From Oscillospiraceae bacterium (lineage in GTDB: Bacteria > Bacillota > Clostridia > Oscillospirales > Oscillospiraceae): 36,612 nucleotides of DNA. Position 1 is the stretch's first letter, and every line of letters starts with the position of its first letter. Below are positions 9,807 to 35,982 of the stretch, piece after piece. Location: the NCBI GenBank assembly GCA_031260605.1, contig JAISLF010000075.1:1-36612 (forward strand). The letters are read 5' to 3'. The notes below the pieces were generated by a model. It did no database searches, was not told the DNA's origin, and was given only the letters and a program-made list of their open reading frames with translations. A program made the translations under genes and the position numbers.

Positions 9807-9820
9807 GTGTTTTCAGCGTG

Positions 9821-9950
9821 GGTATCTCCTCCTCAAAATGCGTGAGGGCTGTGCCTTTCGGCGGCAACCTGTGTGCAGACCGGGTAACAGCCCGCACAGG
9901 CGCTGCAATCCGTAGGAGTAACCCCCGTAGGCTTGCAGGCTTGGAGAATA
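9821..9950 (-). promoter_or_regulatory. Conserved structured 5' leader RNA (riboswitch-like), copy A
   Basis: Read 5' to 3' on the minus strand it begins TTCTCCAAGC and ends GAGGAGGAGA, which can pair to close the structure. Between them are two hairpins (CTGCAA...TTGCAG and CCTGTGC...GCACACAGG), then TTGCCGCCGAAAGGCACAG and CACGCATTTTGAG. The same blocks in the same order are in the leader of the divergent SLH gene (10103-10229), while the hairpin stems differ and keep pairing. I cannot assign it to a known class. The CTCC/GGAG closing stem and GCCGCC-AAAGGC core recall the Moco RNA family as I remember it, with low confidence. Confidence 0.65.
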
Positions 9951-9969
9951 TAGTATTCTATTATTATAT

Positions 9970-10078: not shown

Positions 10079-10102
10079 ATAATAAAACATATACAATTAC
10101 AT

Positions 10103-10229
10103 ACCTCTCCAAGCTCTTAAACCTAAAGAACATCTGTTCCACGGTTTACGAGCCTGAACCTTGATGTTTGAGGTTCACACAGGCTGCCGCCTAAAGGCGC
10201 TGCCCGTCACGCATTTGAGAAGGAGAGCA
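10103..10229 (+). promoter_or_regulatory. Conserved structured 5' leader RNA (riboswitch-like), copy B
   Basis: It begins CTCTCCAAGC and ends GAGAAGGAGAG, which can pair. The interior has hairpins CTC..AAACC/GGTTT..GAG and CCTGAACC/GGTTCACACAGG, then CTGCCGCCTAAAGGCGCTG and CACGCATTTGAG. The unpaired blocks match copy A almost base for base. The stems differ in sequence but keep pairing, which is covariation-like evidence for a functional RNA. The ligand is unknown. Confidence 0.7.
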
Positions 10230-10266
10230 CCGCTGCCGCTTTAATTTTTTGTTGTTAAAGGGTAAT

Positions 10267-15791: not shown

Positions 15792-18700
15792 ATGGCTGAA
15801 AAACTTAAAACAACAGAAACGTCGGACCCAAATGAACCAGCGAACACATCTAAACAACCCCTCAATTTTCAAAAACTCACACCAACTGATGAAGTAGAGC
15901 TTGGTACTTACCTCAATGCATTAGATTTTGTTTTTGAAAATGATGACTTGACAAATGTTGCAATTTCAGGTGCATACGGCGCAGGCAAAAGCAGCATTTT
16001 AGAGTCATATAAAGCGCGACGATCAAATAAGCGGTTTATTCATATTTCGCTTGCTCATTTTGAAACAACCGAGAGCAAAGAAAAGCAACAGAGCAAAACA
16101 ACGCCACCCGAAATTAAGCAGGCAGTACTTGAGGGTAAAATACTAAACCAGCTTATTCATCAAATTTCACAGAAAAATATACCACAAACAAATTTTCGCG
16201 TAAAGCGTGAAGCAAAGCCGCACAAAATAATATCTTGGGCAATAGGAGCTGTTCTATTTGCATTGCTTCTTCTGCATACCATCTTTTTTGAAACCTGGCA
16301 GACCTATGTAGAAAATCTAACACACTTTTGGCTGCGACAGCTATTGAGTCGGACAACCAATAGTAGTGTTTTGCTTGTAACAGGACTATTACTTGCCGTT
16401 GCAATTGGCTTGTGTGTGTTTCATATTATCAAAGCACAAATCAACCGAAGTATATTAAAGAAAATAAGTGCAGACAAACTTGAAATTGAAATATTCAAGG
16501 ACAGTGACGATTCTTTTTTTGATAAATATCTCAATGAAGTCCTCTACCTTTTTGAAAAGTGCGATGCCGACGTTATTGTGTTTGAGGATTTAGATAGGTA
16601 CGATGTCAACCATATATTTGAACGATTGCGTGAAATCAATAGCTTGATAAACGCTAAGCGCAAAAAAGGGCGTATTAAAGAGCAAAAGCCGCCGCTGCGT
16701 TTTCTATACCTGCTTCGTGATGATATATTTACCTCAAAGGACAGGACAAAATTCTTTGATTTTATTATTCCTATCGTTCCAATAATTGATGGTTCAAACT
16801 CGTACAACAAATTTATTGAGCTATCAAACAACACCCAAGCTAAGATTTTTGACGATGCCTTTTTGCGCGGACTATCGCTTTACATAGACGATATGCGTAT
16901 ACTGAAGAACATTTACAACGAATATCTGATTTACGAAAGCCGCGTTAATAAGATTGAATTGAATCACGATAAGCTGCTTGCGATTATTGTGTACAAAAAC
17001 CTATTCCCGCAAGATTTCAACGATTTGCAATTGAGGAAAGGGTTTGTTTTTGCACTGTTTGATGAAAACAGAGTTAATAATATTAGAGCTAATAAACTTA
17101 CTGCGCTTAATGAAGACTTAAAAAAAGCACGCGACGCATACCCAAAAAACAGTAAGATAGAGGACAAAATAGGTTCAGATGCTGAAATGGTTGCGATTGA
17201 ATCCGAACTTGGAGAAGCTAGATTTGCCACACTTAAAGAGTTAATAAATCCAGGAAACATTGACGAAATTTTTGCAGTTACAAGCACAAATGCTGTCGGC
17301 AAACGATTTGACTACACCGCCGTTCGCAGCAATAAGTATTTTGACTTGCTTAAATACCTAATCCGCGACGGATATATCGACGAGTCGTACACGGATTACA
17401 TGACTTACTTTTACCCAAATAGCCTTACTACGAGAGATAAAATATTTCTGCGCAGCGTAACTGACCAAAAGCCTAAAGAGTCAACCTATAAGTTGGACAA
17501 CCCTGAAATGGTATTTGCATGGTTAAGCGAAAGGGATTTTGAGCAACCAGCGGTGGTAAATAATGACTTGCTTTTTTTCTTGTTAAAGAGCTGCGCAAAA
17601 TTTCAAAGAGTAATAGAAGACAGTGGCAAAGATGAAGCTGTTAGCATGGTTTATAATAGTTATGAACCATACTTTGAAGAAGACAATTCAATCGAAATTA
17701 AGCGCTTGGTAAATATGCTTTACCTTTTTCCAAAAACTGATATGGATAATTTGTTTGATTCAGTGAAAGATGTTCAATTAAACTATCTTGTTAACTGTCT
17801 AAATGCGTTTTATGCACCAAAATTATCGCACACTAATTCAGAGACTTTTGTATTTAGAACTCTGATTGCCACGGATGTAGATGATATGTTAACCGGCAAA
17901 CAAGACAAACCTATATTTCTTGAGTCTCACCTGAAACAATACATTTCTGCACACAGCTCATTAATCTCTCGTAAAGCGTTTGACAACCTTGAAAACCTAT
18001 ATGGTACAGGAGTAAAGGATCCGTCGAAAGAAGTTGTTGGCATTGCCCAACTACCTGATAAGTTTGTAAAAAAGCTAATCCGTATTGGCGTCCGTTTCAC
18101 AGATCTTGACCCTGAGCAAGCGCGACAGTCTATTTTTGAGTTAGTTTACTTACACAACCTATACGAACTCAACTTTGGCAACATTTCGAGAATACTTAAA
18201 TCCGAATACGGCATAACAAGTGATGAGGATATTGCACACAAAAGCTATACGCTTATCCGCTCAAAGCCCAAAAGTTCGCTTGCGATGTATGTTAAGGACA
18301 ATATTGATGGATACATTGCTGTGGTACTTGATACGTACGACGCTGAAATTGATGACGAACGAACTGATGCACTCGCTATACTTAATAATGAAAATGTGTC
18401 CGAGGAACATAAGGCGGAATACATTAGAGTTTACAAACGTATTTGGTATCGCTTAACAGACATAACTGACAAATCACTTTGGCAGTTGCTTATTGAAAAC
18501 AAGCGCGTGTCACATAATGTCCAAAACACACTTGACTATTTCAGCTATTGCGGATACGAACTAACATACGAATTACGAAGATTCATAGTTGACAGTAATA
18601 TCGATTCGCAAGACTATACGACCATTCGCAAAACATATGACGACGAAGCTTTGCGGGAGCTCTTCAACGCCGTTATTAAGTGTAACGACTTGGATAATGC

Positions 18701-19523
18701 ATACTATAGCCAAATCCTCAAATCCCTCGATTTCTCTTATTCCAATAGCTTTGACATTGAGGATATCTCGGACGATAAAGTTCTGATTTTAGTAGATATT
18801 GGAGTTATTCGAATGGCAACCGACTCGCTGCTATTTATGCGTGAGCATTACCCCAACGCCGTTTTGCCATACATAACGAAAAATATTGAAAAATATATTA
18901 CCGAAATTATTGAAGGCGATAGCTTTGAGTTTGACCTAAAAGAGGTGCAGTGCGTTGTTGCAAGCAATGAACCCGGCGTAACCGACAAACGCAAGCAACG
19001 TCTGCTTCACGCATTTTGCAAGCCAATAACTGCCCAAAACAAGGCTCATTCAGACACAATTAAGGAGTATATTTTGCTGCACAACCTTGACACCGGCGAT
19101 CTGCAGCACTTTATTTTAGTCTATTCACGCGAAAAGGCAAATACAAAATCTGCAATTGAGAGAATCACGGTTAGTAACATTGACGCTATTTTTGAAAATA
19201 GCTATACTATTGATAAAGCCTTGGTAGATAAACTTTTGTCGTGCAGTGACATACCTGCCGACACCAAGCAAAAACTGTTTGCACTATTATTGCCGAATTT
19301 TGACATAGCGCAGTGCACACAGTATTTGCAACAGCTAAAGTTGAACGATTTGCTTAGCTTATTTGACGGAAAACTCCCGCTTATTCACGATAGCGACATT
19401 AACGAAAGAATACTTAACATTTTCAAAACCAACAACTGGATAAGCAGCTTTGCGCTTGATAAGAAATCGACCGATTGTTTCCGTCCATATATACGAAAAT
19501 CAGCCACAAGAGACTGGGCTTAG
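15792..19523 (+). CDS. YobI-family membrane P-loop NTPase
   Basis: A protein of 1,243 residues, close to the length of Bacillus subtilis YobI as I remember it. The ATG at 15792 follows GAGGG. Walker A is GAYGAGKSS (about residues 59-67), and a Walker B-like VIVFEDLDRYD lies near residues 261-271. Between them are two hydrophobic segments (about 147-167, 193-214) joined by a short loop, which place the NTPase at the membrane. The C-terminal 900 residues are helical without a domain I can name. The gene is clearly more AT-rich than its surroundings, which suggests transfer. It lies upstream of an exported anchored protein, an LHH toxin and a SUKH immunity gene; yobI-like genes near toxin/immunity loci have precedent. 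Its molecular role is unknown. Confidence 0.75.
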   Translation: MAEKLKTTETSDPNEPANTSKQPLNFQKLTPTDEVELGTYLNALDFVFENDDLTNVAISGAYGAGKSSILESYKARRSNKRFIHISLAHFETTESKEKQQSKTTPPEIKQAVLEGKILNQLIHQISQKNIPQTNFRVKREAKPHKIISWAIGAVLFALLLLHTIFFETWQTYVENLTHFWLRQLLSRTTNSSVLLVTGLLLAVAIGLCVFHIIKAQINRSILKKISADKLEIEIFKDSDDSFFDKYLNEVLYLFEKCDADVIVFEDLDRYDVNHIFERLREINSLINAKRKKGRIKEQKPPLRFLYLLRDDIFTSKDRTKFFDFIIPIVPIIDGSNSYNKFIELSNNTQAKIFDDAFLRGLSLYIDDMRILKNIYNEYLIYESRVNKIELNHDKLLAIIVYKNLFPQDFNDLQLRKGFVFALFDENRVNNIRANKLTALNEDLKKARDAYPKNSKIEDKIGSDAEMVAIESELGEARFATLKELINPGNIDEIFAVTSTNAVGKRFDYTAVRSNKYFDLLKYLIRDGYIDESYTDYMTYFYPNSLTTRDKIFLRSVTDQKPKESTYKLDNPEMVFAWLSERDFEQPAVVNNDLLFFLLKSCAKFQRVIEDSGKDEAVSMVYNSYEPYFEEDNSIEIKRLVNMLYLFPKTDMDNLFDSVKDVQLNYLVNCLNAFYAPKLSHTNSETFVFRTLIATDVDDMLTGKQDKPIFLESHLKQYISAHSSLISRKAFDNLENLYGTGVKDPSKEVVGIAQLPDKFVKKLIRIGVRFTDLDPEQARQSIFELVYLHNLYELNFGNISRILKSEYGITSDEDIAHKSYTLIRSKPKSSLAMYVKDNIDGYIAVVLDTYDAEIDDERTDALAILNNENVSEEHKAEYIRVYKRIWYRLTDITDKSLWQLLIENKRVSHNVQNTLDYFSYCGYELTYELRRFIVDSNIDSQDYTTIRKTYDDEALRELFNAVIKCNDLDNAYYSQILKSLDFSYSNSFDIEDISDDKVLILVDIGVIRMATDSLLFMREHYPNAVLPYITKNIEKYITEIIEGDSFEFDLKEVQCVVASNEPGVTDKRKQRLLHAFCKPITAQNKAHSDTIKEYILLHNLDTGDLQHFILVYSREKANTKSAIERITVSNIDAIFENSYTIDKALVDKLLSCSDIPADTKQKLFALLLPNFDIAQCTQYLQQLKLNDLLSLFDGKLPLIHDSDINERILNIFKTNNWISSFALDKKSTDCFRPYIRKSATRDWA

Positions 19524-26399: not shown

Positions 26400-27203
26400 A
26401 TGTTAGATTCTGACCTGTTGTCAATGAAAGAGTTTGCAAAGTACACCGGGTTTTCACAAACCAATCTGCGTTATTACGATGAGATCGGTCTGCTCAAGCC
26501 CGTCAAACGCGGCGAAAATAATTATCGGTACTACTCTGCGCAGCAGATTGTTACCATTAATATGATAAACGTGCTGCGCAGTTTAGGAACCCCCCTTAAT
26601 GAAATTGCAGAATTGGAGTCCAACCGCACGCCTGAGCTTATTTTAGATCAGCTCAAACGGCAGGAGCGCAAGCTGACTGCCGAGCTTCGGCGCATTTATG
26701 AAGCGCAATCCGTTATTCATATTTATTCGGATATGATTGAAGCGGGACTGCACATTAATGAAGACAAAGTCATTGAATACGAGGCAGAAGATATGCCGAT
26801 TGTTTTGGGACCCAAAACAGATTTTGAAGATAACAAACCGTTTTATGAGGCGTTTCTTGAATTTTGCGAAAGAATGAAGCAACTGGGCTTGAATTTAAGC
26901 TACCCGGTGGGCGGATATTACGACAGCATGGATTATTTTTTAGAGCATCCGTCGCAGCCCTCTCGTTTCTTTTTGGGCGACCCTAAGGGCGGGTTCCATA
27001 AAATGGCGGGGAGGTATTTAAGAGCATACACGCGCGGGTACTATGGTGTGCTCAACGATGTGCCGACACGAATTGCGGACTATGCCAAAGAGCATTCCCT
27101 GGATATTGTCGGTCCGGTATATGTCATTTATTTGCACGACGAACTGAGCGTCAAGGACCCTGACCAATACCTCTCACGCGCCTCAGTTTTAATTAAGAAA
27201 TAA
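26400..27203 (+). CDS. MerR family regulator with GyrI-like effector domain
   Basis: A protein of 267 residues. The N-terminal MerR domain is plain: MKEFAKYTGFSQTNLRYYDE then IGLLKPVKRG...NNYRYYS (residues 9-50), followed by a coiled-coil dimerisation helix (LDQLKRQERKLTAELRRIYE). Residues 125-267 resemble the GyrI/BmrR ligand-binding domain, which in relatives binds hydrophobic cations or other drugs. MerR proteins typically bind promoters with a 19-bp spacer and untwist them. Such a promoter lies 230 bases downstream, before the fibre operon, so this protein may control it; that link is inference. A terminator follows the gene. Confidence 0.9.
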   Translation: MLDSDLLSMKEFAKYTGFSQTNLRYYDEIGLLKPVKRGENNYRYYSAQQIVTINMINVLRSLGTPLNEIAELESNRTPELILDQLKRQERKLTAELRRIYEAQSVIHIYSDMIEAGLHINEDKVIEYEAEDMPIVLGPKTDFEDNKPFYEAFLEFCERMKQLGLNLSYPVGGYYDSMDYFLEHPSQPSRFFLGDPKGGFHKMAGRYLRAYTRGYYGVLNDVPTRIADYAKEHSLDIVGPVYVIYLHDELSVKDPDQYLSRASVLIKK

Positions 27204-27232
27204 AGGTAAAATAGCAAGCATATCTGAAAGAT

Positions 27233-27280
27233 AAAAGAGCTAAAACTCTCACCCACTTGAGAGTTTTAGCTCTTTTATTT
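27233..27280 (+). terminator. Terminator of the MerR-type gene
   Basis: AAAAGAGCTAAAACTCTC and its full complement form an 18-bp stem with an eight-base loop, ending in TTTTATTT. Confidence 0.9.
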
Positions 27281-27431: not shown

Positions 27432-27462
27432 TTGACTCTCCAGTTTATAGAGACGGTACAAT
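27432..27462 (+). promoter_or_regulatory. MerR-type promoter (19-bp spacer) of the fibre operon
   Basis: TTGACT and TACAAT are separated by 19 bases, two more than optimal. The spacer holds a partial dyad, TCTC...GAGA, centred between the boxes. This is the architecture MerR-family activators use. The start codon of the signal peptidase gene is about 150 bases downstream, leaving a long leader. Confidence 0.65.
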
Positions 27463-27609: not shown

Positions 27610-28575
27610 ATGCCAAACTATGATTCTTATCTAAACGATATATTCAACGATGACCCGGAAATGCAAAAAGTTCTGGACAGCATCAGACAGTCTCTTGAAC
27701 CCCATGATATGCCCGCAAGCGGCACAAAATATGTACGACCTCCGTCCCCGGCGAATTCGCAGGCGCCATCAAACCAAAGGACAAATGCGCCACCGCCGGA
27801 AGCAAAACAGACGCTAAAAGCGCAGCTGGCACCGCAATGGCAGAATCCGGCAACTGCTTCCGAATTCAGGCAAGCAGACGTGGTTGCCGACGAAGAGCTT
27901 CCTATGCCGAAAGCTTTGTTGAAGCAGCAAGAAAAAATGGAAGTCCGCGAGCAAGCCACGGCAGGGAAGCAAAGCAAACCGGCAAAGCCCGTCACAGGGA
28001 CGCGCAAGTTCGTGAAAACCGTGAGTGATGTCATCTTTTGGGTTGTTTGCGTCACATTTATAGTGGGAGCTGTCCTTTTCGCCACAAGCAAGGACCCGCG
28101 CAAAAGCTATTTTGGGTATCGCACCTATAATGTCATAACCGGCAGCATGACGCCGCAGGCGGACAGTCCGCCGGGCGGGTTCAAAGCCGGAGATGTCATT
28201 ATCACCAAGATGTGCAGGCCGGAAGATATTAGAGTCGGTGATATTATTACCTTCAATCCCAGCACAAGAGACGATGGCAACACATCCTTTTTGACTCACC
28301 GTGTTGTGGAAATCAAATACGAGCTTGGCGGCAAGAGCGGCATCTACTTTGTGACGAAGGGCGACGCCAACCCGTCAGCAGACCCTCCTATCTCCGGCGA
28401 TATGCTAATTGGAAAAAAGGTGTTTCATGTTCCGGCTGTTGGCAAAATTCTGCAAGCCATGCGCAACAACTTCAAGGCAAGCATTCTTACGGTTATCTGC
28501 TTTTTCAGTTTCATTTTCCTGACCAAATGGTATTTTGCCAAACCGAAGGACTTGCAGAAACCGGCGCAGGCATGA
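27610..28575 (+). CDS. SipW-type signal peptidase I
   Basis: A protein of 321 residues with a strong AAAGGAGGTG site. Residues 1-130 are a long Pro/Gln/Ala-rich cytoplasmic tail, unusual for SipW. A membrane helix (VIFWVVCVTFIVGAVLFA) follows, then the catalytic serine in VITGSMTP, AGDVIITK, VGDIITFNP, and LTHRVVE, where a histidine replaces the lysine of standard bacterial enzymes; GDANPSADP is the third conserved block. A second membrane helix near the C-terminus is followed by KWYFAKPK. This is the ER-type S26 family that processes TasA-like fibre proteins. It is first in the operon with two SipW-type substrates downstream. Confidence 0.9.
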   Translation: MPNYDSYLNDIFNDDPEMQKVLDSIRQSLEPHDMPASGTKYVRPPSPANSQAPSNQRTNAPPPEAKQTLKAQLAPQWQNPATASEFRQADVVADEELPMPKALLKQQEKMEVREQATAGKQSKPAKPVTGTRKFVKTVSDVIFWVVCVTFIVGAVLFATSKDPRKSYFGYRTYNVITGSMTPQADSPPGGFKAGDVIITKMCRPEDIRVGDIITFNPSTRDDGNTSFLTHRVVEIKYELGGKSGIYFVTKGDANPSADPPISGDMLIGKKVFHVPAVGKILQAMRNNFKASILTVICFFSFIFLTKWYFAKPKDLQKPAQA

Positions 28576-28701
28576 CAAGCCCGCTGATGTAAAGCGCACC
28601 GCCGCACGCAGCGGCAAACAAATCTGATATGCACTTCCGACCGGAAAACGGAAGTTTGTGTATATAAAAAATGCCTATAAGGCAGAAGAGAGGTTCCTAT
28701 T

Positions 28702-29901
28702 ATGTTTAAGAACAAAAAACTCATTGGAGTCGCAGCGGTTGTACTGGCTATTATGACTGTCGCCTCCGCATCATTTGCTTGGTTTACCAGCAACGATAGT
28801 ATCACAAACCACTTGGAGTCCGGTCAATTCTCCAACGGCGATGTAAAACTGGTCGAAATTTTCGATCCGGACACGCCTCTTGATCCCGGTGTGGATGTAA
28901 ACAAAGACGTGTGGGCCGTGAATATCGGCAGCGTAGACGCGCTTGTGCGTCTCTCCTTCGCCGAGGTTCTGCAGAAGCTTGTTGCTGACGGAAATAATCC
29001 CGAGCAACCCGAAATTACAAATTTCGGCGAGGTTTACGGTAGCACATCTAAAAGCACAGCAGGCGTTTTTCCGATTCTGTTTAACGCGGATGCTCTCGCC
29101 ACAGGCGGTGCGTACGCAGCTCCGGATTGGCAAAACCTCGCCACAAATCCCCCGGCTAATCTGACTGTTCCTGCAGGCACGATTCCCGATGGCGTAACGA
29201 TTCTGTACAAAGCTCTTACCGCAAACGGAAAGACTACATACGTCTTTGTCGCTTACGCAGCGCTGTCCGGCGATTATAACGGCAAATACCAGGCTATCAC
29301 CGCAAACTATAAGGTCAGCGAAGCCGCGCCACGCACACTCACCATCTCCGGCGTGAACTACCAGGTTGTTACTCAGAGCCCGACTATTGAGAAGGCAAAA
29401 TGGGCTGCTCTTGCCGGACATGACGGCGATGCATACAAGACTACAAATATGAATCCGGCATTTGACGGTCTGTTTGGCGATTTCTTCACAGGCATTCCCG
29501 CCGTTCCGCAGCTAACTGCACAGTTCACTGATGACGGAACTTATTACACCTTTGCAAAGACAGAGGTTGACAACGCCAATCATTACATCGAGCTGGTCTT
29601 TGCTCCGAGCAAAGTAACGCTGGTGCCCACGGCAAACAAATGGTGGTACAACCCGGCTGACGGCTACTTCTACTTTGTCGGTAAGGTTGCCCCGGGGCAG
29701 TCTACTCCCGAACTGCTGGACGCGGTACGTTTGAACAACGGGTCAGACAGCATTTACAACAAGCTCAGCTATGACCTTATTGTCAAGATGGACGCCATAC
29801 AGAACCTTCAGGAAGCGCTCAACGGCACTGCCGGCTGGAATGTGAATGTAGATGACCTCACAAACGAGCTTATAGCCGCAAACGCATTTGCAGCAGGTTA
29901 A
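28702..29901 (+). CDS. TasA/BsaA-like SipW-dependent fibre subunit
   Basis: A protein of 399 residues. The N-terminus MFKNKKLIGVAAVVLAIMTV then ASASFAWFTSNDSITNHLES is the hallmark of SipW-processed matrix proteins such as TasA and CalY. The mature part has alternating hydrophobic strands and DVWAVNIGSVDALVRLSFAE, the conserved region of the family in which added strands form the fibre jelly-roll. It likely polymerises on the cell surface. It lies 126 bases after the signal peptidase gene, in a spacer with a hairpin (CTTCCG...CGGAAG). A GC-rich hairpin without a T run follows the gene. Confidence 0.85.
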   Translation: MFKNKKLIGVAAVVLAIMTVASASFAWFTSNDSITNHLESGQFSNGDVKLVEIFDPDTPLDPGVDVNKDVWAVNIGSVDALVRLSFAEVLQKLVADGNNPEQPEITNFGEVYGSTSKSTAGVFPILFNADALATGGAYAAPDWQNLATNPPANLTVPAGTIPDGVTILYKALTANGKTTYVFVAYAALSGDYNGKYQAITANYKVSEAAPRTLTISGVNYQVVTQSPTIEKAKWAALAGHDGDAYKTTNMNPAFDGLFGDFFTGIPAVPQLTAQFTDDGTYYTFAKTEVDNANHYIELVFAPSKVTLVPTANKWWYNPADGYFYFVGKVAPGQSTPELLDAVRLNNGSDSIYNKLSYDLIVKMDAIQNLQEALNGTAGWNVNVDDLTNELIAANAFAAG

Positions 29902-29927
29902 TCTCGTCCGCACCTGAATTAGACTAT

Positions 29928-29956
29928 GCCGCCCGCAGCAACCCGCTGCGGGCGGC
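29928..29956 (+). promoter_or_regulatory. Intercistronic GC-rich hairpin
   Basis: GCCGCCCGCAGC and GCTGCGGGCGGC form a perfect 12-bp stem with a five-base loop and no T run. It may protect the fibre-subunit mRNA from 3' decay or pause polymerase, and so set a higher level of the subunit than of the genes downstream. Confidence 0.65.
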
Positions 29957-29982
29957 AGGAACCCTAAAAGGAGGGCTATCAT

Positions 29983-30717
29983 ATGTTACGTAAATTTCGA
30001 AAAGCAATTTGCTCCGCAGTATCTGTACTCGTTCTTTTTAGCGTGATTTCCGGCACGTTGACTGCGCGCGCTGCAGAAACCGTAACAAGAGAACTCCCTG
30101 CGGGCATCCTTATCGGGGATCAGGACGGCATTCATGTGGACGCTCACGGCTATTACTACATTGACGCCCGAAAACTGAAGCCCGGTGAAGTAATCCACAA
30201 AATAATTACTATCGAGAACCTTGAGTATAACGACCCGACCCCTGAGGCTAAAATCCCTTATGTCGTCACTATGATGGCAGAACCCGTTATGAGTAAGGGC
30301 CCGGTTGATTTGCTTAACACGCGCTGCGTCATTAAGCTGGACGGGAAGATAGTCTACGACGGCACTGTCCGGGGCGACGGTACACCAAATATGAACATAA
30401 CGCCGTTAGAGCTGGGCAAATACAATTTAGGCGACCGGCACATTCTTGATGTAACGCTAACGGTAGACCCGAACGCCCAGTTCGGCGAAGAGTTAAGCGA
30501 GGCGGATTTCAAATGGATCTTTTACGCTTATCGCTCGCTGGATGTAGCCCCGCCAAAGACGGGAGTAGCGGCATTTATTGATTCTTACGGGTATCTGATT
30601 CCCGTTGCCGCGCTGTTGCTGTGCGGTGTCATTCTGATTCCGCTGAAGAAAAAGCGTGACGAAAAGCTACGGGCGCAAGCAAAAACATCGTCTGACGGAA
30701 GGTATTGGCGTGCTTAG
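29983..30717 (+). CDS. Sortase-anchored surface protein (PPKTG motif)
   Basis: A protein of 244 residues, AGGAGGG upstream. It has a conventional signal peptide cleaved near TARAAET, not the SipW type. The middle of about 160 residues (LKPGEVIHKIITIENLEYND, LGDRHILDVTLTVDP) looks like an all-beta domain. The C-terminus is a sorting signal: PPKTG, a hydrophobic stretch (YLIPVAALLLCGVILIPL) and KKKRDEK. It probably anchors the fibre to peptidoglycan after cleavage by the class B sortase encoded two genes downstream. Confidence 0.85.
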   Translation: MLRKFRKAICSAVSVLVLFSVISGTLTARAAETVTRELPAGILIGDQDGIHVDAHGYYYIDARKLKPGEVIHKIITIENLEYNDPTPEAKIPYVVTMMAEPVMSKGPVDLLNTRCVIKLDGKIVYDGTVRGDGTPNMNITPLELGKYNLGDRHILDVTLTVDPNAQFGEELSEADFKWIFYAYRSLDVAPPKTGVAAFIDSYGYLIPVAALLLCGVILIPLKKKRDEKLRAQAKTSSDGRYWRA

Positions 30718-30815
30718 CGCAATGCTGTCCGCTTCAGACCCTTAACTGTGAGAAAAACAAGATTGAAAATCTTTGACGATAGAAGACCGATTTAGACTGA
30801 AAAGGAGGAATGACC

Positions 30816-32789
30816 ATGAAAAAACAATTGAAAGAATCCCGGCGGCGGAACACAAATTGCGCCAAACAGTTGCTCAAATGCAAACCGCTGGTTTTTGTAA
30901 CCAGCGCGGCTCTCGCTTTTGTGATGACGCTTGGCAGCACGGCGGCTTGGTTTACATCTTCCGATTCGAATACGAACAACTTCCGGGGTCCGGACTTAGA
31001 CTACGTCAACACTGACTCCGGGGAAATTGACGGCGGCGGAAACGGCGGCACACCACACAGTTCATTTCAGGTGTCATACTCCAATGCGGCGACAGGCGGA
31101 CCGTTCTCGGAGGGTCTGCACCCGATTTTGCTCCAGGGAAGCACTCAGCCGCGCACATTGACCTTTACTGCAGACATCGTGACAAATGATGTACCGGGAC
31201 GTCCGGCATACTGGACAGTCATCCCGGGAAGCGGAACAGACGGCTTTGCCGGCAAGACCACGGCAGATCTCGTTGGAACAAATCCCTCCACTACGATTAA
31301 TTTGCCCATTCCGGCCGCTGCAACCGGCAAAATCACCATCCGCGCAACATCAGTGGACAACCCGAATGACTATGTGGATTTCACTATTATGCTTGGTATC
31401 GTTTGGGTTAACAAAGAGCTTGAGGATGTAAACGACTTTCACCGCAGCCTGCAGATGTTTGACTCGACGACCCCTTACAATGTGTTTATCTACAATGGTC
31501 AGTACTATTTGCAGGGAACACAGGCGACGATGGCAAATGCCCCCACCAGCTTTGCGACAGGAGTTACGGGAAACCAGCAATATCCTATACCAATGAAGTG
31601 GAGTGCGGCGGCAGGCGACTATATGACGGTTGAGAACGTCAGCAAGATGATTCTTAACACCTCGGGCATACATGTTCTGAAACGCAGCGACGACATCTGG
31701 TATTTTACCGGACAGGATTGCTACGGCATTGGCTCGGTAGGGTCAGCAGATATTACTCAAGCCAGCGGAACGACGTATCCATGGCCTGTGCCGCAAAAAT
31801 GGAGTGCGGCAGCCGGTGATTATATGACAGGCGCAAGCACAGTGAAGATTATCAACAACCAGAGTGATTCGTACATACTGAAAAACGACGGTTACTGGTA
31901 TAGCTCAGGAATGAATACAGCGACCTATCCCATGAAGGGGGACGGGACGACTACTATGGCACGTTATCCGACAAGGATGAAGTGGAACGCAGGTACTGAT
32001 ATTGCCGCAGCGGATATTCTGAATATTCGGGTAGCGCAGAACATCATCCTGTTGCTGCGCCAAGAAGCAAACGGTGAACAAAACTGGTATTCAATCGGCA
32101 TGAACACGGGCGGAGCGCGCTGCGACGGTACAGTATCCACTGAAGCTGCGCCACCGGATCCCTATCCGACACAAATGCTGTGGAGCGCGGGCAACAAGAT
32201 GACGGCACAAAACGCAGATATGTCCTACAACAACGGACAGCGGTATGTGGTGTATATTCTGAACAAGACGGACAACATCTTCTATGCCTCAGGCGAAAAC
32301 GCCAGCGGACTAACATTGCAGGGCACAGGCGCAGGCAACACAGGCGGTTATCCGCTGCCAATGCAGTGGAACAGCACGACATATCTCGCCACCGGCAATG
32401 TCAAGCAGATAGAAACCTCCTGGTACGGAATCTACATTTTGAAGACAGACGGCACCTGGTGGGCAGCGGGACTCAATGCAAACGGCGAGCTGTCAGACGG
32501 CACGACGCAGGGAAAAAGCTTGCCGGTGCAAATGAAGTGGAGCGCGGCAGCGGGCGATTACATCACCGAAGCCAGTGTTAAGAACATTAAGGGCGGACGC
32601 GGCTTTATCGCGCTGGAAAAGCAAAATGGTGTTTGGTATGGCGCGGGTGTTTGCAACAAGGTGCTTAACCAGTACACCAGCTTCCAGATAGTCGGCAACA
32701 GCGGAGAAAACTATGTGTATCCGCAGCAGATGTACTGGAGCAGCGGAGTACCGCTGGTGACCTACCGCTTGTACCCGTTTGATGAATAG
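30816..32789 (+). CDS. SipW-type secreted protein with seven RCC1-like beta-propeller repeats
   Basis: I chose the ATG at 30816 (657 residues): AAAGGAGG is seven bases upstream of it but only one base from the track's ATG at 30810. The N-terminus (LVFVTSAALAFVMTLGSTAA then WFTSSDSNTNNF) is a SipW-type signal, matching the fibre subunit. After an Ig-like region (TFTADIVTNDVPGRPAYWTV) come seven repeats of about 58-65 residues, each opening with YPxPMKWSA or a variant and containing VxxI...YILKxDGxWYxxGxN, with the last ending in a partial strand. The period and motifs fit a seven-bladed RCC1-like propeller. No sortase motif or C-terminal membrane helix is present. It may cap or decorate the fibre, or bind a ligand. 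Confidence 0.8.
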   Translation: MKKQLKESRRRNTNCAKQLLKCKPLVFVTSAALAFVMTLGSTAAWFTSSDSNTNNFRGPDLDYVNTDSGEIDGGGNGGTPHSSFQVSYSNAATGGPFSEGLHPILLQGSTQPRTLTFTADIVTNDVPGRPAYWTVIPGSGTDGFAGKTTADLVGTNPSTTINLPIPAAATGKITIRATSVDNPNDYVDFTIMLGIVWVNKELEDVNDFHRSLQMFDSTTPYNVFIYNGQYYLQGTQATMANAPTSFATGVTGNQQYPIPMKWSAAAGDYMTVENVSKMILNTSGIHVLKRSDDIWYFTGQDCYGIGSVGSADITQASGTTYPWPVPQKWSAAAGDYMTGASTVKIINNQSDSYILKNDGYWYSSGMNTATYPMKGDGTTTMARYPTRMKWNAGTDIAAADILNIRVAQNIILLLRQEANGEQNWYSIGMNTGGARCDGTVSTEAAPPDPYPTQMLWSAGNKMTAQNADMSYNNGQRYVVYILNKTDNIFYASGENASGLTLQGTGAGNTGGYPLPMQWNSTTYLATGNVKQIETSWYGIYILKTDGTWWAAGLNANGELSDGTTQGKSLPVQMKWSAAAGDYITEASVKNIKGGRGFIALEKQNGVWYGAGVCNKVLNQYTSFQIVGNSGENYVYPQQMYWSSGVPLVTYRLYPFDE

Positions 32790-32820
32790 TGTATAAAAGC
32801 ACAGGGAAAGGAGGATGCAT

Positions 32821-33636
32821 ATGAAAAACTTAAAAAAACGGATATACTGCGTCCTCCTGCTTCTCTTAGCGGGGATAGTAATCTTCGCAGCATACCAGAT
32901 TCGGGCGGAAAAAATTCTGATTCAGGATTCAGACGCGCAGATGGCACTCAAGCCGTCTCTGATAAGCCCTCCGCCGGAGGCAACACACGAAAGCACACCG
33001 GACGGTATACCGGATGATTCACCTGAGGCGGAAGCTGAGAATTCATCTGAGACTGCCACGGAAGACACAACTCCCGCATTGCCGATGATGGATTTCAGCG
33101 AGGTTCAGGCAAAAAATCCTGACATTGTGGCGTGGCTGGTCATTGACGGTCTCGGTATAGATTACCCCATTGTGCAGGGAACAGACAACAGCTATTATCT
33201 CAACCATACTGCGGAAAATAAATACAACAAGCTTGGTGCATTGTTTGAGGACTTTCGCAACAACCCGGATTTTAGTGATTTTAACTCTATTATCTACGGG
33301 CACAACAGGAAATCACCGCAGGTGTTCGGACGCCTGAGCCTTATGAAGGATCAGGAGACCTTCGACAAAATCACCACAGGTTATTTGTACACGCCTGCAA
33401 AAACCTACCGCATAGATATTTTTGCGATAGTAGTAGGCGGCTCGCGAAGCGAGTTTTACAACTACATCTTCGCCTCTGCGCAAGCAAAACAGTGGCATTT
33501 GGATATGATCCGGCAATATGCAATGCATTACCGTGACATTGACATAACGGCGGAGGACCGCATTTTGTCCCTGTCTACATGTTCCTATGAGTACAAGGAT
33601 GCCCGAACCATTCTTATTGCAAAATTATCTGATTAG
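32821..33636 (+). CDS. Class B sortase
   Basis: A protein of 271 residues from the ATG at 32821, six bases after AAGGAGG; the track's ATG at 32815 is too close. It has one N-terminal membrane helix (IYCVLLLLLAGIVIFAAYQI), a Pro/Glu/Thr-rich linker, and then the sortase fold. The catalytic histidine is in YGHN, the cysteine in LSLSTCSYEY, and the arginine in KDAR, with the longer class B helix region before the cysteine. It is the likely transpeptidase for the PPKTG protein. Class B sortases usually serve one dedicated substrate encoded nearby, which fits here. Confidence 0.9.
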   Translation: MKNLKKRIYCVLLLLLAGIVIFAAYQIRAEKILIQDSDAQMALKPSLISPPPEATHESTPDGIPDDSPEAEAENSSETATEDTTPALPMMDFSEVQAKNPDIVAWLVIDGLGIDYPIVQGTDNSYYLNHTAENKYNKLGALFEDFRNNPDFSDFNSIIYGHNRKSPQVFGRLSLMKDQETFDKITTGYLYTPAKTYRIDIFAIVVGGSRSEFYNYIFASAQAKQWHLDMIRQYAMHYRDIDITAEDRILSLSTCSYEYKDARTILIAKLSD

Positions 33637-33666
33637 ATTAGCACACCATGCCAAGGGGGTGAGCCA

Positions 33667-34332
33667 ATGAAAAAGCAAATAACCCAAGTAAGCATAGAGG
33701 ATTTAGAGCAGAACCCAACGATTTGTCCTGACATTGAGGATGTGTTTGCGTTACTTCCTTCTCCCTTGCAGGCGCACTGCCTGCGGGTTGGGAAAAGTAT
33801 GCCCTTGATAGTGAAATATGCGCCGTATCTTGTAGATACATACCGATTCAAGGATATGGATGAGCTCCAGTGCGCCGCTTATTCCGGCGGAATTCACCAT
33901 GACATCGGAAAGGCAATCACTTCTGCACAATTTTCATCGAGCGTTTTTGAAAGAGTAAGCCATCCGATTTTAGGACGAGCGTATTTCGATCTGAACATAG
34001 CAAACTTTGATTACGATGAAGCAAAAAATATGATTTTACGCGACATAATAAGCTATCATCACGAAAGACAAGACGGCAAAGGGATCCCATATGGAAAATG
34101 CGGCACGGAGATTCCGCTTGCATCTGCAATTTGTTCAATTGCAGATATGCTGGATCACCTGCTGCTTGCGCCGGGAAGAGGCAGGAAAAGACTTGATTTT
34201 GACCGGGCACTGATATATATTCAATCGCAGCTGGGTGTGATGTTTAGCGGAACTGCTGTCAGTGTCTTCTCTGAGGCAAAGGATGAACTGCTGGCGAATT
34301 ATGAAACCTATACCCGCGAAAAAGCAGTCTGA
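33667..34332 (+). CDS. HD-GYP-like phosphohydrolase
   Basis: A protein of 221 residues, GGGGGTGA upstream. HHDIGK and HHERQDGKGIPYG, then SIADMLDHLL, are the metal-binding motifs of the HD-GYP family (GIP replaces GYP), which degrade cyclic di-GMP. The protein has a short N-terminal region and no sensor, membrane segment or receiver domain. It starts 30 bases after the sortase stop codon and is last in the operon before a terminator. A cyclic di-GMP phosphodiesterase next to a fibre operon would fit biofilm control, but the substrate is inferred from motifs only. Confidence 0.8.
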   Translation: MKKQITQVSIEDLEQNPTICPDIEDVFALLPSPLQAHCLRVGKSMPLIVKYAPYLVDTYRFKDMDELQCAAYSGGIHHDIGKAITSAQFSSSVFERVSHPILGRAYFDLNIANFDYDEAKNMILRDIISYHHERQDGKGIPYGKCGTEIPLASAICSIADMLDHLLLAPGRGRKRLDFDRALIYIQSQLGVMFSGTAVSVFSEAKDELLANYETYTREKAV

Positions 34333-34349: not shown

Positions 34350-34400
34350 AACAAACCCCGATTATAGTGGAAGTGGATTCCGATATAGTCGGGTTTTGTT
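34350..34400 (+). terminator. Terminator of the fibre operon
   Basis: AACAAACCCCGATTATAG...ATAGTCGGGTTTTGTT forms a long stem with few mismatches; the T content is in the 3' arm. It lies 17 bases past the HD-GYP stop codon. Confidence 0.7.
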
Positions 34401-34475: not shown

Positions 34476-34521
34476 CAGCGTATACAAATAGAAATTGCCT
34501 GTAAAAGGGGAGCCGGCTGCG

Positions 34522-35982
34522 GTGGACATTACAATTGGAATCATCATAGAACTTCTTGCGCGTGACGGAATTGACACCCGGCAGCATGCGGCGGAGGGCG
34601 CGGTTGTCCGCAGCTTTGCGCGGCTGACGGAGAATCCCAAGCCGCCGGACTCCGGTACGCTCTACCTCTGCGACGAAGCTTCAGACGCCGAGTGTATGTG
34701 GCTTTGCGCCGCCGGGTGCGGCGCCGAGGAGCTGCTTTCTCACGTTCAGGCGATATTTTTACTGATGCACGAGTGGTACGAGACTATGCAGGACGCGCTC
34801 CTGTCGCAGCAGGGAATACAGGAGATACTTACGCTGTCTGAGCCGGTGATCGGAAACTTCATCTCCGTGTCAGATTCCGCGCTGGCGCTGCTGGCATATA
34901 CAAAAAACATCAGCACAGACGACCCCGTGTCGCTGTATTTGATTGAAAACGGCCACCACTCCAACGAGACCTACCGCAAGTTCGTCGAGCAGAAGAGATT
35001 TAAGGCGTGGACCTCCGGTAACGGACTTATCGTCAACGATAACCGAACCATTGCAAAGCACACCGTCGTGAGCCGGGTGTTCACGTTTAACCGCGCGTAT
35101 TTTACGCACGTCGTAATGAGCTGCAACAATCATGAAATCTCCGCCGGACTGCTCGACCTGTTTACGATTATGTCGAAAATAATCGACCGCTATGTCAAAC
35201 ACGAGTGGGACGCCGTGAGCTTTTACAGTCAGGGCTATAACTCGCTTGTGTCGGAGCTTGTCGGCGGCAAAATCGGCGACTACGTCGATGTTGTTGAGCG
35301 CGCACATATCGCCGGACTGAAGCAGGGCGAAGAATACGTCGTGCTGCTGATCAGCGAGGGCAGCACCAATGCCGCGTTCCCCGGACGGCTCGCCCGAGAC
35401 ATTTCGGAGCAGTTTTTTCCCATCAGGCCGTTTTATTACGGCACCCGGCTGCTGTTATTTCTGCAGTGCAAAGACGTGAGAGCGTATCTGGAGGAACGGG
35501 GCAACGGGAAGCTGCTCACCGAATTCTTCGACTCGCACGGACTGCACTGCGGAATAAGCGATGTGTTCACAGATTTGCTGAATATGTCGGCGGCGTACAA
35601 GCAGGCGAAGCTTGCGCTGACAGCAAACGTAAAGAAGACGACCGTCGTTTTTTTCGAGGATGTGTTCGTAAAATACGCGTTTAACAACGACCCCGAGATG
35701 TTGCGCCTGTTCCGCAACGGCAGGTACGGCAATATGCTCCGCGCGCTCCGCGAATCCGACCACGAGAAGCATAAGAACGATTTTGACGTGCTGAAGACCT
35801 ACCTTTTTAACGAACGCCGCCCGGCCGAGAGCGCGGAGAAGCTGTTTATGCACAGAAATAACGTGGTTTACCGCGTGTCTAAAATTGAAGAGCTGCTCGG
35901 TATTAGCCTTGAAGACCCGCAGACGAAGCTCAACCTGTTTTTGACTTTTTTGCTTGAAGACGCATTTCATATATTTGATTGA
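34522..35982 (+). CDS. PucR/CdaR-family transcriptional regulator
   Basis: A protein of 486 residues. I chose the GTG at 34522, nine bases after AGGGGAG; the track's TTG at 34495 lacks a site. The C-terminal 60 residues hold the PucR HTH: YLFNERRPAESAEKLFMHRN then NVVYRVSKIEELLGISLEDP. A GGDEF-like central region (about 280-410), including DVVERAHIAGLKQGEEYVVL, is typical of the CdaR/PucR family. The N-terminal half may sense a ligand but is unassigned. Relatives activate catabolic or transport genes in response to metabolites. The next gene, in the same direction, is a substrate-binding lipoprotein, a plausible target. Confidence 0.85.
   Translation: MDITIGIIIELLARDGIDTRQHAAEGAVVRSFARLTENPKPPDSGTLYLCDEASDAECMWLCAAGCGAEELLSHVQAIFLLMHEWYETMQDALLSQQGIQEILTLSEPVIGNFISVSDSALALLAYTKNISTDDPVSLYLIENGHHSNETYRKFVEQKRFKAWTSGNGLIVNDNRTIAKHTVVSRVFTFNRAYFTHVVMSCNNHEISAGLLDLFTIMSKIIDRYVKHEWDAVSFYSQGYNSLVSELVGGKIGDYVDVVERAHIAGLKQGEEYVVLLISEGSTNAAFPGRLARDISEQFFPIRPFYYGTRLLLFLQCKDVRAYLEERGNGKLLTEFFDSHGLHCGISDVFTDLLNMSAAYKQAKLALTANVKKTTVVFFEDVFVKYAFNNDPEMLRLFRNGRYGNMLRALRESDHEKHKNDFDVLKTYLFNERRPAESAEKLFMHRNNVVYRVSKIEELLGISLEDPQTKLNLFLTFLLEDAFHIFD

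Follow-up and report, generated by a model that had tools for sequence, protein, structure and literature searches.

It is not settled how fibres of the TasA type are attached to the cell; in Bacillus, TapA and CapP have been proposed as assembly or anchoring factors, both without a sortase. In a stretch of 36,612 nucleotides from a gut-type Clostridia bacterium of the family Oscillospiraceae (GenBank assembly GCA_031260605.1, contig JAISLF010000075.1, positions 1 to 36,612; hereafter the window), genes for a SipW-type signal peptidase, a fibre subunit (TasL), a predicted sortase substrate and a class B sortase (SrtB) lie together at 27,610-34,332. We consider it likely that this operon builds a TasA/BsaA-type surface fibre that is tied covalently to the wall by its own SrtB, with TasL as the shaft, a protein of TasA-like fold as the base and a propeller protein as the tip. 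The features of the operon are as follows.

27,230-27,279 (+): terminator hairpin dividing the operon from a preceding MerR gene; 22-bp perfect stem, fold z -7.3
27,610-28,575 (+): SipW-type signal peptidase of the endoplasmic reticulum/archaeal (Ser-His) type, with an N-terminal extension of ~130 aa
28,702-29,901 (+): TasL, TasA/BsaA-family fibre subunit with a SipW-type signal, AWF at residues 26-28
29,927-29,957 (+): intercistronic hairpin between the TasL and anchor genes; 13-bp, G+C-rich, no T-run, z -4.6
29,983-30,717 (+): anchor protein, from sequence and model: Sec signal, TasA-like beta-sandwich, PPKTG, transmembrane helix, basic tail
30,810-32,789 (+): protein of the fourth gene (slot 4): SipW-type signal and N-terminus, a region of Ig-like appearance, a seven-repeat RCC1-like propeller, no sorting signal; alternative ATG at 30,816
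32,815-33,636 (+): class B sortase (SrtB), matching TIGR03064 and SrtB homologues in the PDB
33,667-34,332 (+): stand-alone HD-GYP-like protein (HCLRVG, HHDIGK, SHP, HHERQDGKGIP, ADMLD); PF13487 1.7e-8, PDB 4mcw 4e-9
34,357-34,393 (+): hairpin with T-run at the operon end, 3' of the HD gene

All six open reading frames, separated by gaps of 127, 82, 92, 25 and 30 bp, are present on the + strand; the first five have the identities given to them in an initial annotation of this DNA, and the product of the sixth is HD-GYP-like. The signal peptidase scored 81 bits against TIGR02228 (cut-off 52) and contains the Ser and His signatures TGSM and THRV; its score fell below the cut-off of the SipW-specific family NF046067. 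TasL was assigned to the 'BsaA family' TIGR04090 (79.2 bits, cut-off 60) and lies below the cut-offs for TIGR04088 (15) and camelysin (16.1). By these profile matches, the operon is predicted to encode two components of SipW-TasA/BsaA fibre systems, the peptidase and a SipW-signalled subunit. The earlier proposal of two SipW-type substrates held, as TasL and the propeller protein both carry SipW-type signals. The anchor combines all the marks of a cell-wall sorting substrate, namely an N-terminal signal, a P-x-T-G motif, a hydrophobic helix and a basic tail. SrtB scored 161.9 bits against TIGR03064 (cut-off 153.75), and its catalytic residues H161, C254 and R262 were invariant in the sortase alignment. 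Gene identities, gene order, motifs and hairpins, as well as the promoter spacing and the remote anchor-pilin homology described below, are read from the sequence.

The grouping was found again in other genomes. A search in one genome per GTDB species with a four-sequence SrtB alignment, a seven-sequence version being too diverse, recovered an operon (L140) in the Oscillospiraceae metagenome-assembled genome (MAG) Lab288P3bin30, in which genes for SipW, TasL, a PPRTG anchor, a SipW-signalled slot-4 protein and SrtB are followed by that for a 1632-aa repeat protein. Identities between the window and this operon were 43% for SipW, 45% for TasL, 47% for the anchor and 58% for SrtB. The tail of an operon of the same type is carried by a second MAG (L141, Co191P4bin15); from their isolate names, both MAGs presumably derive from termite guts. 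TIGR04090 matched in 25 of 301 genomes of the family. In the neighbourhoods fetched from these, SipW was accompanied by several TasA-like subunits, in many cases also by a VWA/SpaA protein and a P.TG anchor. SrtB was present in a subset (L036, L037, L040 and L056), to which an anchor search added L004. In L036, L037, L040 and L056, and in L163, L171 and L209 from the sortase search, srtB comes after the anchor gene, with SipW-type genes alongside; the order in L004 is anchor-SrtB-SipW. P.TG anchor and SrtB were found paired next to SipW-type genes in about ten loci; L172 (Flavonifractor sp. An112), L173 and L191, which appear to repeat L036, L040 and L056, were not counted again. The P.TG motif was retained in 11/11 aligned anchors. 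The combination of SipW, TasA-like subunit, P.TG anchor and SrtB that had been pointed out initially thus recurs elsewhere in the same order, which also supports the accompanying idea of a wall-anchored fibre. As for the full six-gene order, the slot order of genes 1-5 recurs in L140, but the propeller and the HD gene were found in no comparable operon.

A recognised SipW homologue lay near only 6 of the 80 nearest sortases, which indicates that the class B sortases mostly have other tasks. Two further class B-like sortases were detected on other contigs of the genome (G000:C12, L107, and G000:C14, L108). One of the two matches a sortase conserved genus-wide; the other is encoded, together with a SpaA-type protein, in a region resembling a mobile element.

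The anchor ectodomain was compared with SipW-type pilins using hhalign on profiles from which signal peptides had been removed, with 40 column shuffles as control. The probability was 93.5 and the score 48.2; the controls stood at 24.5 for the best of the 40 shuffles and at ~10 for SrtB or SipW profiles. An AlphaFold model of the anchor was a beta-sandwich of moderate confidence (70.6), and its weak fold matches include the archaeal donor-strand filaments 7ueg and 7pnb. Sequence searches of the PDB gave a single weak, non-significant match for the anchor and none for the pilin or the propeller, and a viral-fold search with the anchor returned assorted low-similarity matches only. The profile comparison suggests that the anchor ectodomain is itself TasA-like, remotely homologous to the pilins.

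The protein encoded in slot 4 differs between the two operons. The window has the propeller there, with seven W/Y-x-x-G repeats at regular spacing and a WD40_RLD match (E 1.4e-8) under the curated cut-off; its counterpart in L140 is a small protein of TasA-like appearance. Similarity between the two proteins is confined to the signal and the first residues of the mature protein (2e-6). No full-length relative of the propeller was present in the 301 family genomes, where RCC1 repeats alone were matched. Judged from these alignments, slot 4 is a variable position of the operon.

TasA, to which archaeal bundling pili are related, forms its fibres by means of an N-terminal donor strand, the first of which TapA may supply (PMC9674648). 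For the window operon we infer the polymerisation of TasL, the pairing of SrtB with the anchor, and the base and tip roles. Removal of the special signals by SipW would expose the N-termini of both TasL and the propeller protein, which could then act as donor strands as in TasA. TasL, having both donor strand and acceptor fold, would polymerise into a shaft by donor-strand exchange. The PPKTG protein, whose motif is the one that SrtB of C. difficile cuts between T and G (PMC4591827), would be cut by the SrtB of the operon and attached to peptidoglycan; with a TasA-like fold and no SipW-type N-terminus, it could accept the last donor strand of the shaft and so form the base. No TasA fold is recognisable in the propeller protein, although its N-terminus is of the donor type; it is therefore placed at the opposite end of the fibre, as a tip or adhesin. 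A more speculative extension, which we put forward tentatively, is that the SipW-type signal and first mature residues act as a portable donor-strand tag by which an unrelated ectodomain such as the propeller is added to a TasA-type fibre at its tip, while a dedicated class B sortase fixes an acceptor-only base of TasA fold to the wall. Such a pilus would be held together non-covalently, would be rooted covalently and could exchange its tips.

Several observations weigh against a wall-anchored fibre of this kind. The anchor ectodomain showed no significant similarity to the TasL group of the window itself (hhalign probability 2.4), so that its link to pilins is significant only via other SipW-type pilins. 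The fold matches of the anchor have low TM-scores and come from a model of moderate confidence, and the TasL model was unusable (pLDDT 37). Numerous related operons encode a P.TG anchor yet no sortase, from which it follows that SrtB is not essential to the class. Finally, BsaA of C. perfringens polymerises without the neighbouring srtB and is mostly extracellular (PMC7395162). These last two points also favour the strongest alternative, namely a fibre that, like the one of C. perfringens, is a free polymer of the matrix, with SrtB and its PPKTG substrate as a separate surface-display unit sharing the transcript; deletion of srtB in that species left BsaA polymers and pellicles unchanged (PMC7395162). 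We regard this alternative as rather unlikely, considering that the anchor and SrtB genes adjoin those for SipW-type subunits in about ten loci and that the anchor ectodomain is remotely homologous to pilins.

The six genes had been described as one transcript, and their shared direction and the hairpin terminators flanking the operon on both sides support this at sequence level; the transcript level may, however, step down at 29,927-29,957, where the hairpin after TasL has no T-run. Strong hairpins also lie 3' of TasA-like genes in L140, L036, L037, L040, L049 and L058. In C. perfringens, a predicted terminator 3' of bsaA gives a short sipW-bsaA mRNA plus a read-through mRNA (PMC7395162), which makes stoichiometry control by the post-TasL hairpin plausible by analogy. 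Such a hairpin may favour the shaft over the accessory proteins.

Expression of the operon may be governed by a gene next door; the initial annotation included neither this gene nor the promoter in front of sipW.

26,400-27,203 (+): MerR-family regulator (MerR_1 9e-18), proposed activator of the operon
27,432-27,462 (+): sipW promoter TTGACT-19 bp-TACAAT with a partial dyad in the spacer and MerR-type spacing (5/1000 shuffles)

Promoters activated by MerR typically have a spacer of 19 bp, and the layout of such a promoter, a spacer of 19-20 bp beside a MerR gene, is present here. The two closest homologues of the regulator in the genus (54% identity; G263:C37 and G302:C109) flank SipW operons divergently, and identical promoter spacing was found in L038, L132, L135 and L136. 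Each of the five MerR-adjacent intergenic regions examined contains exactly one TTGAC-19-TANANT promoter facing a surface-protein gene; the equally strict pattern with a spacing of 16-18 bp occurs in none of them. Between 0 and 37 per 1000 shuffles of these regions contain the pattern by chance; the figures are descriptive, since the regions were picked after the first example had been seen, and represent about three independent cases, since two pairs look orthologous. Given the 19-bp spacer, shared with two congeners that have the same MerR, the neighbouring regulator appears a better candidate than cyclic di-GMP (c-di-GMP) for control of the operon, and we infer that it switches on the operon promoter. 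In the two congener operons (L038 in G263:C37 and L132 in G302:C109), the divergent MerR gene faces genes for SipW, a Big_2/TasA-like protein, a DUF6273 protein, a SpaA-type P.TG protein and a TasA-like subunit, with no sortase inside. In L135 and L136, the MerR homologues stand beside genes for SPKTG/VPKTG surface proteins with 19-bp-spacer promoters. This suggests that the MerR homologues are a small family of surface-protein activators.

Second-messenger control had been proposed at the outset, and could take the form of a c-di-GMP-controlled sortase surface system in which the fibre is tuned by the HD-GYP protein through a fall in c-di-GMP, on the lines of the PPKTG substrates of SrtB in C. 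difficile, which are under c-di-GMP control (PMC4591827). The HD gene lies 30 bp 3' of srtB and ahead of the terminator, its product is above the HD_5 cut-off with candidate metal ligands retained, and GGDEF genes occur in 8/12 genomes of the genus. Yet GIP is found where GYP is expected, no GGDEF gene was found in this genome (74% complete), and no c-di-GMP riboswitch was detected in the operon leader at the Rfam gathering score. In addition, the L140 operon lacks the HD gene, and a search for its relatives across the 301 family genomes gave generic HD-GYP matches only. The proposal was accordingly not upheld: c-di-GMP control of the operon is possible but unsupported, and we hold such a system to be improbable. 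Weaker Rfam riboswitch matches in the leader were rejected, being mostly chance matches to the terminator hairpin. Past the operon terminator, at 34,495-35,982 (+) and before a putative substrate-binding lipoprotein gene, lies a PucR-type regulator (HTH_30, GGDEF_2), whose GGDEF-like GGDEF_2 domain is not to be taken for a diguanylate cyclase.

That SrtB polymerises the subunits covalently, in the manner of class C pilus sortases, is very improbable: a sortase does lie within the operon and some relatives encode SpaA or VWA domain proteins, but the sortase is class B and neither TasL nor the propeller protein has a sorting signal, for which reasons a SpaA-type covalent pilus was rejected.

The fibre with its own wall-anchoring sortase can be placed among known systems. 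C. perfringens srtB/sipW-bsaABCRSD shares with the window a SipW peptidase, a BsaA-family subunit, more secreted proteins, an adjoining srtB and a predicted terminator with read-through 3' of the subunit gene (PMC7395162). As srtB already adjoins sipW-bsaA there, the starting premise that SipW/TasA operons lack a sortase fails. The C. perfringens srtB, however, is dispensable and lies 5' of sipW, whereas srtB and the P.TG anchor gene are inside the window operon; regulation is by the BsaRS two-component system instead of a MerR gene next door; no LPXTG-like motif is predicted in BsaA; and the window operon adds the propeller and the HD gene (PMC7395162). B. subtilis tapA-sipW-tasA likewise has SipW-processed TasA-type subunits, with TapA as an accessory donor-strand protein, but lacks a sortase; TapA does not serve as a sortase substrate, and a wall-linked TasA-like base is not described (PMC9674648, PMC10151520). 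The TasA/CalY/CapP filaments of B. cereus combine SipW-processed subunits with a cell-wall-associated assembly factor and are described as sortase-independent (PMC13082335). SrtB of C. difficile is also a class B sortase, and cuts PPKTG between T and G; its PPKTG/SPKTG substrates, which are controlled by c-di-GMP, differ in being large adhesins under riboswitch control, with no SipW fibre and with the sortase outside the operon of its substrates (PMC4591827).

A literature search, with most subscription papers outside its reach, found no description of a SipW fibre with a sortase substrate in the operon. The locus had been called an undescribed surface system; it is not wholly new, being a variant of a known biofilm-fibre system, but a recurrent and apparently undescribed one, in which the sortase substrate of a SipW-type fibre operon is TasA-like and the fourth gene, SipW-signalled, is exchangeable. 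The recurrent pairing of a fibre with such a substrate and its own sortase offers a direct, testable answer for Clostridia to how the fibre is held, and suggests swappable tips. If true, it would join the literatures on donor-strand matrix fibres and on sortase-anchored surface proteins.

Elsewhere in the window, divergent matches to the Moco (molybdenum/tungsten cofactor) riboswitch were found at 9,810-9,958 (-) and 10,095-10,241 (+), with 38.0 and 58.8 bits. Both lie upstream of large secreted open reading frames that resemble SLH/GLUG surface proteins, not of cofactor genes. A 1243-aa protein encoded at 15,792-19,523 (+) resembles, as read, a P-loop NTPase that also has membrane segments, and is possibly defence-related.

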